Below, one piece after another: positions 2,308 through 11,270 of a stretch of 64,000 nt of DNA. Each line of letters opens with the position of its first letter. Positions within the stretch are counted from its first letter, which is position 1. A model generated the notes under the pieces. That model saw nothing but the letters and a program-made list of their open reading frames with translations, searched no databases and was not told where the DNA came from. Source of the stretch: Pseudomonas poae (GTDB lineage Bacteria; Pseudomonadota; Gammaproteobacteria; Pseudomonadales; Pseudomonadaceae); NCBI GenBank assembly GCA_004000515.1, contig CP034537.1:4106001-4170000 (forward strand), in the 5' to 3' direction. The position numbers and the translations under genes were made by a program.

Positions 2308-3172
2308 ATGAGTCACTACCAGCCGGGCATTCTTGCCGCACCGGTGCCGTTGCAGGCACGCCATCTGTTTTTTGCCTTGGATTCCCTGGCTGCCGTACCC
2401 GCTGCGCTGGACGCGCTGGTGCAGTTGACCGATTCGGCGGCAGTGGTCGGTTTTGGCGAGCCGCTGGTAACCGCACTGGTTGCACGCATCGACGGCCTAC
2501 GCAGCTTCCCCTGCCGTCAGTGGGCCCGGCGCGCATAACCCATCTACCCAGCACGCGTTGTGGGTGTGGTTGCACGGTGTAGACCGCGGTGAACTGTTGC
2601 TGCGCAGCCGTGCGTTTGAAAAAGCCCTGGCCCCGGCGTTCAGCCTGGTGCAGATGACCGAAGGCTTCCGCTACAAGACCGGTTTCGACCTCACCGACTA
2701 CGAAGACGGCACCGAAAACCCCCACGACGATGCTGCCGTTGAAGCCGCCCTGACCGACAGTGGCGCCAGCTTCGCCGCGATCCAGCAGTGGCAGCACGAC
2801 CTCGACGGTTTCGCCGCACTGCCGGCCCAGGAGCGCGACCACATCATCGGCCGCCGCCATGGCGACAACGAAGAACTCGACGACGCCCCTGAATCCGCGC
2901 ACACCAAGCGCACCGCCCAGGAAAGCTTCACTCCGGAAGCCTTCGTGGTGCGCCGCTCGATGCCATGGGCCGAGAACGGCCAGGCCGGGTTGATGTTCCT
3001 CGCGTTCGGTCATTCGTTTGATGCATTCGAAGCGCAATTGCGCCGCATGAGCGGGCTGGAAGACGGGATCGTCGACGGCCTGTATCGCATCAGCACACCG
3101 TTGACCGGTGGCTACTACTGGTGCCCGCCGATCAACGCGGGGCGCCTGGACCTGAGTGCACTGGCAAGCTGA
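2308..3172 (+). CDS. DyP-type heme peroxidase; broken by one indel
   Basis: Dye-decolourising peroxidase of about 287 residues, a cytoplasmic heme enzyme that uses hydrogen peroxide. Visible landmarks are the acidic DYEDGTENP motif near residues 130-138 (DyP catalytic Asp), the proximal heme His near 198 in SAHTKRT, and FVVRRSMPW with the conserved Arg. The start at 2308 follows GAAGGAG by 7 bases. The frame breaks at the CCCC run 2508-2511, where removing one C joins GLRSFP to AVSGPGAHNPS. It is transcribed divergently from the aldehyde dehydrogenase with only 138 bases between starts, and a strong hairpin terminator follows. Confidence 0.88.
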
Positions 3173-3232: not shown

Positions 3233-3394
3233 GGCTGTGTATCACACTGTGTCCCCGGGCCCCTCTGATACACCGCCATGATCTTGCTGGCAGTTCGCGA
3301 CACAGACCGGATACACGCCTGGCTTTAAATCTGCCTACCAGCTGGCGCACCTACCGCGCCCTGGTTTCTTCAGACAAGCCAGGAGACTCACCCC

Positions 3395-3667
3395 ATGAAG
3401 CGTCCTTACGCTGCCCTCGCTGCAACCCTCGCCCTGTCCCTCAGCGCCTTCGCGGCGGTGGCCCATGCCGATGAGGCCAAGCCCCAGGAAAAATGCTTCG
3501 GCGTGTCCCTGGCCGGTGCCAACGATTGCGCCGCCGGCAAGGGCACCTCGTGCGCCGGTACCGCCACCGCCGACTACCAGGGCAACGCCTGGGTGCTGGT
3601 GGACAAAGGCACCTGCACCCAGATCAAGACCCCCAAAGGCTACGGCAGCCTGACGGAGCAACCGTGA
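3395..3667 (+). CDS. bufA1: Bufferin-type RiPP precursor, DUF2282 (BufA1-like)
   Basis: A 90-residue exported small protein. Residues 1-25 form a Sec signal peptide (basic start, hydrophobic core, cleavage at AHA-DE). The mature part has four Cys, at 34, 45, 53 and 74, in the spacing C-x10-C-x7-C-x20-C with [17 protein letters not shown] and a KTPKG tail, which is the DUF2282 pattern. In characterised homologues the central Cys residues are turned into thiooxazole-type rings by an MNIO enzyme and the peptide binds copper; that role is inferred here. The start at 3395 has AGGAGA 8 bases upstream. Its stop overlaps the next start by four bases, so the two are translated together. Confidence 0.85.
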
Positions 3668-4077
3668 TCCAGCGGCTGTTGCCCGAAGCGCTGCTGTTGC
3701 TGGTGGCGCGCGTGGGGATCGCGGCGGTGTTCTTCCTGTCGGGGCGCACCAAGGTCACCGGGTTTCTTGAGCTTAAGCCGTCGACCTACACGCTGTTCCG
3801 TTCGGAATACGCCTTGCCGCTGATCCCGCCGGAGTGGGCGGCGCACCTGGCGACCTACGCCGAGCACCTGTTCCCGCTGTTGCTGGTGTTGGGGCTGCTG
3901 ACCCGCCCGGCAGCCGCTGCGCTGCTGGGCATGACGCTGGTGATCGAGGTGTTTGTGTACCCCGATGCCTGGCCGGTGCACCTGACCTGGGCGGGCCTGT
4001 TGCTGCCGTTGCTGGCGAAGGGCGGTGGGGCTTGGTCGCTGGATCGCCTGTTAGCGGGCAAACGTTTATCACTTTGA
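3664..4077 (+). CDS. DoxX-family membrane protein (BufD-like)
   Basis: A 137-residue integral membrane protein. The GTG start at 3664 overlaps the precursor stop (GTGA), and no better start exists. Four hydrophobic segments are visible (about residues 8-26, 62-80, 82-98 and 104-117), with the conserved early [12 protein letters not shown] motif of DoxX proteins. DoxX partners are found in many DUF2282/DUF692 operons; a role in redox or membrane steps of maturation or export is plausible but unproven. Confidence 0.8.
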
Positions 4078-4089
4078 TGGAGACTTCTT

Positions 4090-4851
4090 ATGCGCATGCT
4101 TTCTTCCCTGGCCCTTGCCGTGGCCATGACTGTTCCCGTACTGGCACAGGCCGCTGATGCGCCGCAGCCCGGCACCGGTAAAAGCGTGGTGATCGTGCCC
4201 GGCTCGTTTGTCGACGGTTCCGGCTGGCGGGTGGTGCACGACATCCTGATTCACGAGGGCTACAAGGTCACCGTGGTGCACCAGGGCCACGAGAGCCTGG
4301 CCGCCGATGTGGCCGAGGCGCGTGAGGTGCTGGAGCAGCAAGTTGGCCCAGTGGTGCTGGTGGGCCACAGTTCCGGCGGCGGGGTGATCTCGATTGCCGG
4401 CGACCGTGGCAAGGTCAAGTCGCTGGTCTACGTCTCGGCCCTGCAACCGGAAGTAGGCGAGAACATGGCCCAGTTGATCGGCTCCATGCCGTCCCCAAGC
4501 GATGACATCAAGCCGAGCCGTGACGGCCACCTGTTTTTCGATCGCGCCAAGTTCAACGCGGATTTTGCCGCCGACCTGACCACCAATCGCACCGACTTCA
4601 TGGCCGCCTCGCAAGTGCCGGCCACCGCCACGCTGTTCGGCGGCACCGTGTGGGCCGCCGCCTGGCATAACAAGCCGACCTACGCCGTGGTGTCCACCGA
4701 AGACCGCGCCCTGAGCCCCGACCTGCAGCGTTGGATGTACAAGCGCGCCGGTTCCAAGGTCACCGAAATCAAAGCCAGCCACGCGGTGTACATCTCCCAG
4801 CCTGAGGCTGTGGCGAAGGTCATCGAAGACGCGGCTTCCGTTATCAAATAA
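4090..4851 (+). CDS. Exported alpha/beta hydrolase within the buf-like operon
   Basis: A 253-residue protein with a signal peptide (cleavage near AQA-AD, residue 22). The hydrolase fold is intact: oxyanion strand PGSFVDGSGW near residue 37, nucleophile elbow GHSSGG with Ser near 95, a candidate acid in STEDRAL, and the catalytic His near 235 in ASHAVYIS. It resembles secreted esterase-like hydrolases. It sits 12 bases after doxX, with GGAG before the start, and 25 bases before the second precursor gene, so it is co-transcribed. No hydrolase is a standard part of the bufferin operons I know. A peptidase or esterase acting on the precursor is one guess; unrelated periplasmic chemistry is equally possible. 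Confidence 0.82.
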   Translation: MRMLSSLALAVAMTVPVLAQAADAPQPGTGKSVVIVPGSFVDGSGWRVVHDILIHEGYKVTVVHQGHESLAADVAEAREVLEQQVGPVVLVGHSSGGGVISIAGDRGKVKSLVYVSALQPEVGENMAQLIGSMPSPSDDIKPSRDGHLFFDRAKFNADFAADLTTNRTDFMAASQVPATATLFGGTVWAAAWHNKPTYAVVSTEDRALSPDLQRWMYKRAGSKVTEIKASHAVYISQPEAVAKVIEDAASVIK

Positions 4852-4876
4852 CCCATCACACCCTGGAGCAATACCC

Positions 4877-5149
4877 ATGAACACTGCACTTAAATCCCGC
4901 TTGAGCCTCGCTGCTGCCGCTGCCTTGATCGCCATGGCGTCTGCGTCGTTCGCCACGGCTGCCAGCGCCGCCGACCAGCAGGAAAAACCCGGCCGTTGCT
5001 ACGGCGTCAACACCTGCAAAGGCACCAGCCTGTGTGCCACCGCCAAGAACGACTGCAAGGGCCTCAACAGCTGCAAGGGCGAGGGCGTGATCGTCAAGAC
5101 GCCGTCCGAGTGCCTCAAGGCTGGCGGCACCCTGACTGAGCCGAAATAA
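4877..5149 (+). CDS. Second Cys-rich exported RiPP precursor candidate (BufA2-like)
   Basis: A 90-residue protein with a 31-32 residue Ala-rich signal peptide (cleavage near ASA-AD). The mature part carries six Cys, at 41, 47, 53, 60, 66 and 79, spaced 5-5-6-5-12, and the repeated CKG motif, which gives it a low-complexity, Lys/Gly/Cys-rich look. It is clearly a different family from the four-Cys DUF2282 protein upstream. It lies just before the MNIO gene and has a GGAG ribosome site. By position and Cys content I take it as a second substrate of the same enzyme, similar to the BufA2 group. Confidence 0.8.
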   Translation: MNTALKSRLSLAAAAALIAMASASFATAASAADQQEKPGRCYGVNTCKGTSLCATAKNDCKGLNSCKGEGVIVKTPSECLKAGGTLTEPK

Positions 5150-5229
5150 CTCAACCTCCACCAGGGGCGGTTTTTTGTGGTGAGGGCGCCACAAAGAGCT
5201 CGCCCTACAGGTTCAATCGAGAATCCCTC

Positions 5230-6054
5230 ATGCCGACACCCAACCCACACTTTTCAGGCTACGGCCTGGGGATGCGCAAGGAGCATTACTGCGATTTCCT
5301 GGAAACCACCGTGCCTGTGGATTTTGTCGAAGTGATCTCCGAGAACTTCATGGTCGCCGGTGGCCAGCCCCGGCACATCCTGCGTCAGGTCCGCGAGCGC
5401 TACCCGGTGGCGCTGCATGGCGTGTCGATGTCCATTGGCACTGCCGAAGGACTCGATGCCGACTACCTGCGCCGCCTCAAAGCGTTGGTCGATGAAATCG
5501 ACCCGCTGTTTGTTTCCGATCACTTGAGCTGGTCACGCAGTGGCGCCTTCAATTCCCATGACTTGCTGCCGGTGCCTTATACCGACGAAGCGTTGGACCG
5601 GGTGTGCGCCAATATCCATCAAGCCCAGGACCTGCTGGGCCGCACGATGCTGTTTGAAAACCCGTCCAGCTACCTCGCCTTCGAGGGCGCGTCCATGAGC
5701 GAGTGGGAATTTATCGCCGCTATGGCCAAACGCACCGGCTGCGAACTGTTGCTGGACGTCAACAATGTGTTTGTCAGCGCCAGTAACCATGGCTTCGATG
5801 CGCTGGCGTTTCTGGATGGCATCCCTGCCGAGCGGGTGCGTCAGGTACATCTGGCTGGGCATAGCCAGGGCCGCGGGCTGTTGATCGACAGCCATGACAG
5901 CCCGGTGTGCGCAAGCGTCTGGGAACTGTATGCCCAGGCCATGGCCAGGCTGGGCCCGGTGGCAACCATGATCGAACGCGATGATGAAATTCCGCCGCTG
6001 GGCGAGTTGCTGCTAGAGCTGGGCATGGCCCGAGCCTTGGGAGCGCAGCGATGA
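5230..6054 (+). CDS. bufB: MNIO (DUF692) multinuclear iron oxidative enzyme, BufB-like
   Basis: A 274-residue TIM-barrel enzyme of the DUF692 family, which uses two or three iron ions and oxygen to rebuild Cys residues in RiPP precursors. All expected metal ligands can be seen: His63 (LHGVSMS), His98 (SDHLSW), Glu143 (FENPSS), Asp176 (LDVNNV), His207 (VHLAGH), Asp220/His222 (IDSHDS) and Glu249 (IERDDE). The ATG at 5230 is 80 bases after the second precursor; the ribosome site is weak. The stop overlaps the next start (ATGA). The call of the family is firm; the exact modification made is inferred from the precursors beside it. Confidence 0.92.
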   Translation: MPTPNPHFSGYGLGMRKEHYCDFLETTVPVDFVEVISENFMVAGGQPRHILRQVRERYPVALHGVSMSIGTAEGLDADYLRRLKALVDEIDPLFVSDHLSWSRSGAFNSHDLLPVPYTDEALDRVCANIHQAQDLLGRTMLFENPSSYLAFEGASMSEWEFIAAMAKRTGCELLLDVNNVFVSASNHGFDALAFLDGIPAERVRQVHLAGHSQGRGLLIDSHDSPVCASVWELYAQAMARLGPVATMIERDDEIPPLGELLLELGMARALGAQR

Positions 6055-6799
6055 CCCTGGCGCAGTGGCAACAGACGTTTCGCCATTGGTTGGTAAGTGC
6101 GGCGGATGAGTCTGCACAGCGCCTGGGCAATAACCACGCAGGCCTGGCGGTTTACCAGAACAACTACCGCGCGCAGTTGGTGGGGTGCCTGGAGCAAGCG
6201 TTTCCTAACGTGCGGCGCTGGGTTGGCGAGGAGGCGTTTTGACAGCCTGCATTACGCATATCGACCAGCAACCGCCCCATGCCTGGACGCTTGACGCCTA
6301 TCCCGAAGGGTTTCACTCGACCTTGAGCGCGGTGTTTCCCCATAACCCGGACGTACTGGAGTTGGCCTGGATCGAAGGGGCATTGAATGAAGCGTTTGTC
6401 GCCGCCGATGCCCAGGCCTTGCCGCTGGAAACCTTGGCCAGCGCGGATTGGGACACGGCAGTGTTGCAACTGACACCGTCGCTGCGTTGCCGCGCCTTGA
6501 CCACCAACGCTGAAGCCATCTGGTCGGCGCTGTGGCAGGAAGCATCGGCGCCCGAGGCGGTGATGTTGGCGCAGGCCGGTGGGCTGCTGGTCTGGCGCCG
6601 CCAGTTCACCTCGCGCCTACGTCAGGTGGATACCCTGGAGTTGCAGGCCTTGTTGCACCTGCAGGGCGACGGCAGCTTCGCGGGCTTGTGTGAGTTTCTG
6701 GTGACGCACCTGGACGAAGCGGCAGGCGTAGCGCAAGCCGGTGAATACTTGGCCACTTGGCTGGGCAGTGAATTGATCGTAGGGGTGAGTGATTTTTGA
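6051..6799 (+). CDS. bufC: DUF2063 (BufC-like) MNIO partner protein; broken by one indel
   Basis: About 249 residues once repaired. The N-terminal 65 residues (QWQQTFRHW, LAVYQNNYRAQLVGCLEQAFPNV) are the DUF2063 domain that in related systems recognises the precursor and hands it to the MNIO enzyme. The remainder is the less conserved helical/winged part. It starts inside the stop of bufB (ATGA at 6051). The literal frame stops at 6240 right after GEEAF. Adding one T to the TTTT run 6237-6240 restores EAFLTACITHID and an open frame to 6799. This is most likely a read error. Confidence 0.85.
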
Positions 6800-7247
6800 T
6801 CGTCGTGGTTTTTTGCTGTTGGCAGCCGTGGTGGCAGCGGCACCGGCATTGGCGGTGCAGCGGGTGAGTACCGACGATGACCGGGAGATCCGCTATGAGC
6901 AGTTCGGACCGGAGGAAGGGCGCGCGATTATCCTGTTGGCCGCAGATGGGCAGGTGTTTGCCCAGGTGACTGCACCGTTGGCGGCCCAGGGGTTTCGGGT
7001 GATTGTTCCGTACCTGCGTGAGCAGGACGATGCGGTGCTTGGCCAGGATGTGCTTGAGCTGATGAACGCCCTGCATATCCCAGAAGCCGTGCTGGCCGGA
7101 GTCGAGCAGGGTGGGCGTGTGGCTATCCGAGCGGCTGGCTTGAAACCGAGCCGCTGCGTGGCGCTGTTGACGTTGAACAGCGCACCCCTGGCGGGTTTTG
7201 CCGAGGCGGTCGGGCTGATGGCCAAGGCCGGATACTGGCGGACCTGA
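6789..7247 (+). CDS. Tat-exported half-length alpha/beta hydrolase fold protein lacking a catalytic Ser
   Basis: A 152-residue protein from a GTG at 6789 that overlaps the end of the DUF2063 gene by 11 bases. It begins with a twin-arginine leader (DRRGFLLLAA followed by an Ala-rich core, cleavage near ALA-V). The body has the first half of an alpha/beta hydrolase, but the nucleophile elbow reads AGVEQGG: Glu stands where Ser or Asp should be, and the protein ends before the catalytic acid and His. The next gene's stop codon abuts directly at 7248, so no missing second half is present. It is probably non-catalytic; binding or scaffolding are guesses. Confidence 0.7.
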   Translation: MIFDRRGFLLLAAVVAAAPALAVQRVSTDDDREIRYEQFGPEEGRAIILLAADGQVFAQVTAPLAAQGFRVIVPYLREQDDAVLGQDVLELMNALHIPEAVLAGVEQGGRVAIRAAGLKPSRCVALLTLNSAPLAGFAEAVGLMAKAGYWRT

Positions 7248-7973
7248 TTAGGCGATCAACTCCACGGCGCCGCTGTGCAGCCGGTAAATGCCGCCGACGA
7301 TACTGAGCTTTCCTGCGCCAAGGGCATCGGCCAGCAGCTGGGATTCACTGTTGAGCCGGGCCACAGTGTCCCGGACGTTCTGCGCAATCGCGTTATCCAG
7401 CAGAGTGCCGGGAGCTTGCAACACCTTGCTCACCGAGGGTTTGAGCGCATCGGCCAGGCCCTGGATCTTGCCGGGGAAGGTGGCGTTGTCCTTGACGGCC
7501 TTGACCCCGGCAGCAACGGCGCCACAACTGTCATGCCCCAGCACCAGGATCAGCGGCGTACCGAGTACCGCGATGGCATATTCAAGGCTGGCGAGCCCTT
7601 CGTCAGTGACGAAATTGCCCGCAACCCGGACCGAAAACAGCTCGCCCAGGCCGGTGTCGAACACGTATTCGGGGCGATCCTTGAATCCGCGCAGGCCAGC
7701 ACCGCCGCGAAGGGGTGCTGGCTGTCTAACAGCGCGACGCGTTCGACCATCAGGTCACGGCGCTTTGTCACGTCGGCGGCATAACGCTTGTTGCCCTCCA
7801 TCAGCCGTGCCAAGGCTTGCTCCGGGTTGACTACCGTGAGTGGCGTGGGCGCCGCTGCATGGGCGATAGCGTTCGGCAGCGCCCCGACAACAGCAGGCCC
7901 CGGCGCTGGCAGTGGCCAGGCGCAAGAAGTTTCGACGATCGTCAGAAGGAGCCTTGTCGCGATTGTTACGCAT
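7248..7973 (-). CDS. Beta-class carbonic anhydrase with Tat leader; broken by two indels
   Basis: About 241 residues. It interconverts carbon dioxide and bicarbonate, here probably in the periplasm. The leader DDRRNFLRLATAS is a twin-arginine signal. Zinc ligands are Cys94, Asp96 (ACADSR), His147 and Cys150 (LGHDSCG). The start is the ATG at 7973. Two breaks occur: one extra base in the CCCC run at 7898-7901 (repair gives SAGPAVVGALPN) and one missing base at GGGG 7671-7674 (repair gives RIAPEYVFDTG). It converges on the buf-like operon with no spacer between stop codons. Confidence 0.85.
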
Positions 7974-8171
7974 CGGTTGGGTTCTCGGGGGGACGGGGAG
8001 ACGCGCCAAGGTTGCAAACAATGCTGCGCAAAAAATGTAGGGGGTTTCCTTTAATAAACGTCCAGGGTTGTAGGGCTTGAACATGAAAAATCCGACAGCC
8101 AAGCAATCCCTCACTGAAAAAATCGCCACTCCCCGTAATCTAATGGCCTTTGTTACCTGCGCGGACCATTC

Positions 8172-9582: not shown

Positions 9583-10716
9583 ATGACCAGCCAGGCCCTT
9601 CGCACCGCCGACACCCAGTCCCGCCGCGCCGCGCTGACCCTGGCGCTGTGCTTGCCCAGCGACGTGTTGCTCTACCTGCTGCTGCCCATGGAATCCCAGG
9701 CCTTCGGTATCACCTTGGCCCAGGCGGGTATGCTGCTGGCCGCCAACCGCCTGGTGCGGATTTTCGGTTACCGGCATGTGCTCAATTTCTACGCGCGCAA
9801 CGGTGACCGTCTCACCTGCATGATCGCCGCCGGCGCCGCAACGCTGTGTGCCGTGGGTAACTCGATGTTGTCCGGCTTCGCCGCGTTGCTCGGCCTGCGA
9901 TTGGTGTGGGGCCTGTGTTTTGCAGCGCTGAACCTGTCGACCCAGGTATTGGCCACTTCTGAACCGACGGGCGCCGCACGTAGAGCCGGGCGCTCGCGGG
10001 CATTGATCGCCCTTGGGCCGATGCTCGCGCTGCCTCTGGGTGGGTGGCTGACACTGTGGGCCGGGCCACGTCCAATTTTTCTGATCCTGGCGGGTTGCTG
10101 CCTGGTGGGTTTGTGGATGGCGCGCGGCTTGCCGACACTCGGCCACAACCTGCACAGCACGCCGGGACGGCGCTTCAAGTGGCCGGACAGCGTGGCAATG
10201 TGGTCGTTTATCGAAGGCGTGGCACTGGATGGGCTGTTTATCTTCGGCTTGTCGATCCAGGCGCAGAAACTGCTTGGTGGCGATGCGGTGCTGATCGCCG
10301 GCGGCTTGATGGCGCTGCGGTATGTCTCTGAAATGCTTCTGAGCCCGTTGGGCGGCAGGGCGGCACAGCGCTTTGGCGCCACGTCGATGCTGTTGCTGTT
10401 TTCGTTCCTCAGCGCCCTGGCCCTGAGCGCATTTGGCAGTTACTGGGTGATTGTCGGCGCAGCGGCGGTGCTGGTGCTGCGTGCGTTGCAACTGCCATTG
10501 GTGACGACGTTGGTGGCCGAGCGCAACCCAGGGTCGATGCGCGTCTCGGCACTGGCGTCCAACGCGGTGTGGCGGGATATCGGTGCAGGCCTGGGGCCGT
10601 TGCTGGCCGGCCTGCTATTACCGATAGCCTCGGCGCCCTGGGTGTTCGGCGTGGCCGGCGCAGCGATTGCCGTGAGCGCGGTGTTCTGCTGGCGAGCAAA
10701 GGTTTCCACGCCGTAA
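9583..10716 (+). CDS. MFS transporter (12-TM)
   Basis: 377 residues with about 11-12 hydrophobic segments and the basic loop typical of major facilitator proteins (LAANRLVRIFGYR near residue 51; SEPTGAARRAGRSRALIALG in the middle). It starts 46 bases after the DHA2 exporter on the same strand, so the two may be co-transcribed. No motif identifies a substrate. The frame is open and intact. Confidence 0.75.
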   Translation: MTSQALRTADTQSRRAALTLALCLPSDVLLYLLLPMESQAFGITLAQAGMLLAANRLVRIFGYRHVLNFYARNGDRLTCMIAAGAATLCAVGNSMLSGFAALLGLRLVWGLCFAALNLSTQVLATSEPTGAARRAGRSRALIALGPMLALPLGGWLTLWAGPRPIFLILAGCCLVGLWMARGLPTLGHNLHSTPGRRFKWPDSVAMWSFIEGVALDGLFIFGLSIQAQKLLGGDAVLIAGGLMALRYVSEMLLSPLGGRAAQRFGATSMLLLFSFLSALALSAFGSYWVIVGAAAVLVLRALQLPLVTTLVAERNPGSMRVSALASNAVWRDIGAGLGPLLAGLLLPIASAPWVFGVAGAAIAVSAVFCWRAKVSTP

Positions 10717-10748
10717 TCGTTGGTGTCGACACTTCACGCCGCCATCAT

Positions 10749-11270
10749 TCAAGCGTTTTTCAAACCGTCGATCCACGCGGGGTCAAAGCGCGTTTGCTCG
10801 GTATCGATGCCCAACGCCTGCATCTTCGCCTTATGCGCCTCGATCTCACCCACCATCTGCGCCTGGGCGCTGGAGTTGGCGTCCAGTTCGTGCATTTGCG
10901 TCAGCCCCAGATGATAGAAACGCAGCACTTTGATCGCCGTCGGATCATTGGCCTGCACCCGCTCAGTGACCTTGTGCATCACATTGGTCACGCTCATCAG
11001 GCAGCGCTTGAGCTGCCAGCCGTACACCGCCGCCGCCAGCCACGGCTGTGTCCAGAACGGGCCCCGTACCAGCGCCACGGTAATCAGCACGCCGGCAAAT
11101 ACACCGCCCACATTGAAGCGAAAGTTGTCGCCGCCAGGTTCACCGAACAGCATCACTGCCAGAGTAGACAGCACCATGGCCAGCACCAGGAACAGCACGG
11201 CCACGATCAACGTGCTGCGGCGGGTCTGCTGGCGGAAGGTGACGGGGTCGCAGGGTTTGAGTTCGAACAT
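10749..11270 (-). CDS. DUF3087-type inner-membrane protein
   Basis: 173 residues from the ATG at 11270, which has GGAG about 10 bases upstream; an earlier in-frame start at 11312 lacks one. Two membrane segments (about residues 20-42 and 53-67) are followed by a soluble, helical domain with FYHLGLTQMHELD. The pattern matches the DUF3087 family, whose function is unknown. It converges on the MFS gene. Confidence 0.7.
   Translation of the reverse strand: MFELKPCDPVTFRQQTRRSTLIVAVLFLVLAMVLSTLAVMLFGEPGGDNFRFNVGGVFAGVLITVALVRGPFWTQPWLAAAVYGWQLKRCLMSVTNVMHKVTERVQANDPTAIKVLRFYHLGLTQMHELDANSSAQAQMVGEIEAHKAKMQALGIDTEQTRFDPAWIDGLKNA

Follow-up and report, generated by a model that had tools for sequence, protein, structure and literature searches.

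Which peptides does a modifying enzyme serve when its operon encodes two unlike precursors? The question is posed by seven genes at positions 3395..7247 of a 64,000-nucleotide stretch of Pseudomonas poae DNA (assembly GCA_004000515.1, contig CP034537.1, positions 4,106,001 to 4,170,000 of the forward strand), which we call the window. These genes make up an operon for ribosomally synthesised and post-translationally modified peptides (RiPPs) of the bufferin (captophorin) type, in which one MNIO enzyme (DUF692) and its DUF2063 partner stand beside both precursor classes, a four-cysteine DUF2282 protein and a six-cysteine protein. In the likeliest reading, to which we give a probability of roughly 0.6, the operon is an envelope defence module in which this single MNIO/DUF2063 pair would serve both precursors.

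Gene content and recurrence of the operon

A preliminary description of the window had claimed seven products in this order and span, and the open-frame list together with family models places all of them on the + strand:

3238..3272, no strand: operator-like palindrome TGTATC-N23-GATACA, preceding the operon
3395..3667, + strand: BUF1, DUF2282 (Buf1-type) precursor, 90 aa with four Cys; PF10048 83.9 bits (cut-off 22.4)
3664..4077, + strand: DoxX membrane protein; PF07681 67.7 bits (cut-off 23.6)
4090..4851, + strand: ABH1, serine alpha/beta hydrolase, 253 aa, exported as judged by eye; PF12697 (Abhydrolase_6) 78.7 bits (cut-off 26.3)
4877..5149, + strand: BUF2, BufA2-type precursor, 90 aa with six Cys; NF050166 89.8 bits (cut-off 60)
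5230..6054, + strand: MNIO (DUF692, BufB family); PF05114 364 bits, NF050167 (bufferin maturase) 377.5 bits (cut-off 310)
6051..6242, + strand: DUF2063 partner, N-terminal part, whose frame stops early; PF09836 48.7 bits (cut-off 27.2)
6239..6799, + strand: DUF2063 partner, C-terminal part, in another frame and without a Pfam match of its own
6789..7247, + strand: ABH2, shortened epoxide-hydrolase-like protein, 152 aa, with an N-terminus resembling twin-arginine translocation (TAT) signals; identified by alignment, the ratio of non-synonymous to synonymous substitution rates (omega) and an AlphaFold model

Its identification as a bufferin-type operon in which a single MNIO/DUF2063 pair accompanies both precursor classes holds as well: the models for MNIO, the precursors, DoxX and DUF2063 score over their cut-offs, and the genes by which a bufferin (captophorin) cluster is recognised (maturase-type MNIO, PME1-type DUF2063 partner, four-Cys Buf1 and six-Cys Buf2 precursors) are all present. 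The DoxX start is our choice of the GTG at 3664, the open-frame list having a longer frame from 3493; given this start, neighbouring genes overlap, as had been described, by 4 bases (first precursor and DoxX), 4 bases (MNIO and DUF2063) and 11 bases (DUF2063 and ABH2), and the remaining intergenic gaps measure 12, 25 and 80 bases. DoxX reaches 45.9 bits against the HvfX model NF050144, under its cut-off of 80, and is not counted as an HvfX protein. Both precursors have hydrophobic N-termini with Ala-rich ends, that of BUF1 looking Sec-type on inspection of the sequence, and no solved structure matched either at E 0.001.

The six-gene core recurs far beyond chance and is shared by many soil bacteria. 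An MNIO 80-100% identical to that of the window occurs in 28 of 398 genomes of the genus (its own included; next best 55%), and all six genes of the core are present in 26 of the 27 relatives, the 27th locus (L084; loci are numbered L, genomes G and contigs C) stopping at a contig edge. A second genome scan returned 62 loci, comprising 36 close ones (L135-L169, L193), 12 of a sphingomonad type (L170-L181) and 14 of other make-up. Among the close loci, 34 carry all six core genes, while L155 and L157 end at contig edges; counts out of 34 below refer to these fully covered loci, which come from Pseudomonas, from the Burkholderiales (Caballeronia, Cupriavidus, Duganella, Massilia and Pseudoduganella) and from Luteibacter. 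Gene order is as in the window in 27, with DoxX first in 3 and last in 4, so that DoxX is the mobile gene and the relative order BUF1-ABH1-BUF2-MNIO-DUF2063 is constant in 34/34. The preliminary description had made its interpretation depend on hydrolases being conserved beside DUF692, and the interpretation withstands this check: ABH1 lies between the precursor genes in 34/34 loci, and ABH2 is found in 25/34. Furthermore, the four Cys of BUF1 are invariant in 35/35 rows (omega 0.08) and the six Cys of BUF2 in 36/36 (omega 0.03), and omega is 0.08 for MNIO, 0.07 for ABH1 and 0.12 for DoxX, the dS filter of the selection test having removed no pair in this six-gene comparison.

Loci of the sphingomonad type, from sphingomonads and Luteimonas, carry both precursors, DoxX, MNIO and DUF2063 in 11 of 12 cases, BUF2 not being found in L180. 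In 11 of the 12, BUF2-MNIO-DUF2063 lies on one strand and BUF1-DoxX on the opposite one, and none of the 12 has an ABH1 match. One of them, at L170:4416-5614, has genes for an extracytoplasmic function (ECF) sigma factor and NrsF directly upstream of BUF2-MNIO-DUF2063; according to the available text of PMC12452194, sigma/NrsF genes accompany Buf1 clusters but are absent from Buf2 ones, a pattern that L170 does not follow, as both genes stand next to BUF2-MNIO.

The preliminary description did not recognise the arrangement as described, a view we had to drop: an identical order of genes appears in print as the 'Pep4' cluster of P. fluorescens (eLife 2021, PMC8719888), namely DUF2282 peptide, DoxX, hydrolase, short domainless peptide, DUF692, DUF2063 and hydrolase. 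In the available text of that paper, Pep4 is listed only, named once without function, wider distribution, regulation or hydrolase analysis, and the match is one of printed gene order, not of the sequences of that paper's strains. No functional study of the arrangement turned up among the papers listed by a literature search that covered few subscription papers. The Buf1 and Buf2 clusters of PMC12452194 share with the operon a core of precursor, MNIO, DUF2063 and DoxX as well as both precursor families; the available text treats the two kinds of cluster apart, whereas here both precursors lie in one operon. The hydrolases set it apart further, since the only hydrolase named in the main text of PMC12452194 is a peptidyl-tRNA hydrolase (2 occurrences) and the word is absent from the available main text on captophorins (PMC13097082).

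The MNIO clade, its probable substrates and a shared operator

Maximum-likelihood analysis of 77 MNIO rows places the enzymes of two-precursor loci in one clade of 49 rows (support 98/94), which also takes in L155 and L157 (contig ends) and L180 (BUF2 not found). The tree excluded MNIO frames shorter than 240 aa, containing a stop or scoring below 150 bits, such as the split L087 enzyme discussed below and the truncated L192; it used no locus below L086 and, from L197 on, only L215 and L217, and its outer rows drew a long-branch warning from the program. Together with Buf2-only enzymes from Pseudomonas and same-order genomes, the clade makes up a group of 62 rows; apart from L180, the Buf1-only rows (five) are placed elsewhere in the tree. 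At the residue after the proposed catalytic Asp, 40 clade rows have Asp, 8 have Gly and 1 has Ala; Buf2-only enzymes have Asp in L217 and in all 12 rows from Pseudomonas and same-order genomes, with Asp in 1/4 and Ala in 3/4 planctomycete rows, and the five Buf1-only rows have Thr, Ser or Ala. By alignment, this column appears to be the specificity site at which, according to the available text of PMC13097082, Asp is proposed to recognise the Lys after Cys. The captophorin systems described there, in which MNIO and a partner with DUF2063 and a RiPP recognition element (DUF2063/RRE) install 5-thiooxazoles, have Asp at this Cys-Lys site, as here. By both its tree position and its ERDD site, the window MNIO is Buf2-like.

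That such an enzyme may nevertheless serve both precursors is suggested by their joint recurrence beside it and by four of the 27 genomes searched (G445, G448, G456, G458), in which the single MNIO gene lies in the two-precursor locus, the completeness of these assemblies not being stated. The available text of PMC12452194 takes tandem precursor genes to suggest MNIOs with more than one substrate. The C-termini are alike as well: G[ST][LI] stands within the last ten residues of BUF1 in 34/34 hydrolase-type and 10/12 sphingomonad-type loci, and of BUF2 in 29/35 and 9/11, respectively; among BUF2 precursors from other loci it is found in 0/18 (5 of planctomycetes, 13 of Pseudomonas and same-order genomes). 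These tails may be a shared recognition tag, or they may reflect descent of both families from one ancestor.

A conserved palindrome upstream of the operon was first seen in an alignment of 16 Pseudomonas promoters. The pattern TGTATC-N23-GATACA occurs with at most one mismatch within 400 bp upstream of 27/34 loci (23/23 from Pseudomonas, L154 from Caballeronia, and L166-L168), a match reached by 1 of 2000 letter-shuffled upstream regions, and the copy at 3238..3272 is the sole such site in the window. In the P. poae genome, exact N23 sites number two, with a single N22 site at C1:5063018, and the reversed-pattern control gives 0; in 14 other operon-bearing genomes, N23 sites total 30, between one and four per genome, and the control gives none. 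Across these 14 genomes and the own one, 17 N23 sites lie away from the operon: 11 are beside a gene for an exported full-length ABH2 paralog (a count that includes the own copy, which was the query), 6 beside cytochrome P460, with 5 sites belonging to both of these groups, and 3 beside a formamidase gene, two of these with a dienelactone hydrolase, while 2 (L260, L261) match none of these. The own paralog, an exported full-length epoxide-hydrolase-like protein (L252:2895-3932), adjoins C1 site 4742426, and P460 is also present at this place in the loci of five relatives. The shared operator suggests a small envelope-stress regulon with the exported ABH2 paralog and P460, and by tying bufferins to exported hydrolases and P460 it makes the physiological signal directly testable. 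A literature search on DoxX with cytochrome P460 gave no lead. In G445, the operon itself contains a second operator-like site, in the stretch that separates BUF2 from the MNIO gene (C89:16450-16484).

In the mechanism we propose, the Buf2-like MNIO and its DUF2063 partner would most likely modify Cys residues of the DUF2282 and six-Cys exported precursors, yielding two periplasmic thiooxazole metallophores, and the DoxX membrane protein and the exported serine hydrolase would be made together with both peptides under one operator, which appears to be part of a small regulon with an exported epoxide-hydrolase-like protein and cytochrome P460. The bufferins would bind metal (copper, by family), and the exported enzymes may remove reactive organic compounds met or produced under the same stress, a role suggested by their families and by the shared operator. 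ABH2 of this strain would have lost catalysis and survive as a small folded, probably binding, protein. Gene content, conservation, the MNIO clade, the operator and selection are observed directly; peptide modification, copper binding and export are attributed here by family (available text of PMC12452194 and PMC13097082); shared substrate use, the regulon and the type of stress are what we infer for this locus.

Several observations weigh against this reading. The join of the clade with Buf2-only enzymes has support of 92/91, below the threshold of the tool, and the marker residue of the MNIO is of the Buf2 kind and says nothing for BUF1. Two to four MNIO genes are present in 23 of the 27 genomes, so that most genomes do not decide, and the separate DUF2282 locus of the own genome, L087, could serve BUF1. 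The G[ST][LI] tail also occurs in 2/6 Buf1-only precursors. ABH1 has lost its Ser nucleophile in 4/36 rows, these being the DoxX-last loci L164 and L166-L168. Seven of the 34 loci are without the operator at one mismatch or fewer (missing in L159-L163 and L165, two mismatches in L164), the 23 Pseudomonas loci are related and not independent, a kinship outside the shuffles, and no regulator was found among the genes beside the operator sites or through a stricter palindrome, which 7 of 89 genomes have. Moreover, each MNIO subgroup is reported to follow a single precursor family (available text of PMC12452194), which argues for specificity; a clade that stands beside two classes, with no other MNIO found in some genomes, offers a clean system for studying how enzyme and partner choose their substrates.

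The strongest competitor, still clearly the less probable one, is that the operon MNIO modifies BUF2 only, BUF1 being left unmodified or handled by an MNIO from a different locus, with DoxX and BUF1 forming a co-regulated module. The Buf2-like tree position and ERDD residue speak for such a division, as does locus L087 of the own genome (C1:7137000-7149000), with BUF1-MNIO-DUF2063-DoxX and its MNIO split in two frames. The own genome has one more bufferin locus, L086 (C1:1494000-1506000), with BUF2-MNIO-DUF2063. The placement of BUF1-DoxX on the other strand from BUF2-MNIO-DUF2063 in sphingomonad-type loci fits the division too. A second locus in Luteibacter (L227, L228) reads BUF1-MNIO-DUF2063-DoxX-BUF2-MNIO-DUF2063 and has an own MNIO for each precursor, which speaks for specificity in that case. 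However, the four genomes with only the MNIO of the two-precursor locus, subject to the completeness of their assemblies, and the retention of all four BUF1 Cys argue against the division, and one pair for both precursors stays the likelier reading. A bolder form of this preferred reading is more doubtful than the division just described: the whole MNIO clade would be dual-specific, the MNIO/DUF2063 pair would read a common C-terminal tail on two unlike precursors, both products and the exported alpha/beta hydrolases would act in the periplasm on reactive organic compounds as much as on copper under a dedicated regulator with operator TGTATC-N23-GATACA, and the short ABH2 would be a non-catalytic protein with a new binding role.

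The two hydrolase-like proteins

Of the two exported hydrolases that had been named, ABH1 stands as a probable enzyme, and ABH2 is in this strain a non-catalytic remnant. ABH1 combines a serine-hydrolase fold with a catalytic triad, Asp205 and His231 being kept in 36/36 rows and Ser94 in 32/36. Its model (mean predicted local distance difference test score, pLDDT, 77) best matches the alpha/beta hydrolase 8hfw, followed by a pyrethroid hydrolase, SABP2-like esterases and hydroxynitrile lyases among others. At L164, L166, L167 and L168, ABH1 has Gly for the Ser nucleophile, and the MNIO site of the same loci reads ERDG or ERDA.

The epoxide hydrolase family is defined by an HGxP motif, an Asp nucleophile, a cap domain and a catalytic His. 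ABH2 is longer than 300 aa in 7 of its 25 loci and short in 18; a 126-aa match in L139, being merely one frame of the DUF2063 gene there, is left out of these numbers. The long form has the nucleophile motif GYDWGG together with HNLPQE in L154, L159, L161, L165 and L169, and in these five loci HGxP (HGYP in L165), Asp nucleophile, cap and His occur together. The exceptions are L156, with Gly at the nucleophile place, and L164, with Gly there and without HNLPQE. Among the 18 short forms, Asp is kept at the nucleophile place in 5 (L136, L149, L150, L152, L160) and HNLPQE in 0. In the window ABH2, Glu stands at the nucleophile place and HGxP, cap and catalytic His are gone, though the last residues are kept; it therefore falls outside the epoxide hydrolase definition, and an active hydrolase in this strain is rejected. 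The protein scores below every listed Pfam and NCBIfam cut-off, the TAT_signal model included. Its AlphaFold model (mean pLDDT 85.8) has as best fold match 5bov, the putative epoxide hydrolase KPN_01808, which aligns with the full-length ABH2 of Cupriavidus L161 at 335 bits; against 5bov, the window protein is without cap, nucleophile and catalytic His.

A decaying pseudogene is likewise rejected, because the short ABH2 has a median omega of 0.17 (55 pairs, 11 loci) vs 0.19 for the full-length form (21 pairs), indicating purifying selection. In the short ABH2, selection has preserved what is left of an enzyme. ABH1 and ABH2 as defence-system hydrolases were also discarded, PADLOC giving no match at E 0.01.

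Could the hydrolases instead be tailoring enzymes, with exported ABH1, and full-length ABH2 where present, acting on the modified bufferins in the periplasm? The position of ABH1 between the precursor genes in every complete locus and its conservation on a par with BUF1 and MNIO would fit. We nonetheless consider this improbable: sphingomonad-type loci do without ABH1 (0/12), the ABH2 paralog adjoins the same operator at 11/17 non-operon sites, the ABH1 Ser is lost in four rows and the window ABH2 is non-catalytic.

The split DUF2063 frame and assembly quality

The DUF2063 gene of the preliminary description is present, but not as a single open frame in the window, its N- and C-terminal parts lying in different frames. 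Read literally, this would mean that the partner gene is truly broken and the operon dead in this strain. We regard this as very improbable, because one frame runs through both parts in 27/27 relatives from the genus, unrelated genes of the same window are split as well, and the own assembly has more and shorter frames than that of relative G157 (20.2 vs 18.4 open frames of at least 100 aa per 20 kb, 14 stretches each). The C-terminal part is 75-84% identical in 21 of the 27 relatives and 62-68% in the other 6.

When relatives' open frames were mapped on the window, ten other places matched them only as different-frame pieces (one of them, 10443-10948, resting on one short frame), and at further places the best match was split. 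These splits of conserved genes point to an indel-rich assembly. Since ten other places are split and the relatives have one frame, the DUF2063 split is probably a sequencing or base-call error, likelier than biology; programmed frameshifting was rejected, given the unsplit gene in all 27 relatives and the split unrelated genes. Genes split between frames lie at 557-2220, 2308-3172, 7248-8017, about 13-42 kb and 57-62 kb, and include aldehyde dehydrogenase-like, Dyp peroxidase and carbonic anhydrase-like genes. In a relative (G357), the DUF2282 precursor gene at L065:8015-8285 matches as two overlapping pieces in different frames.

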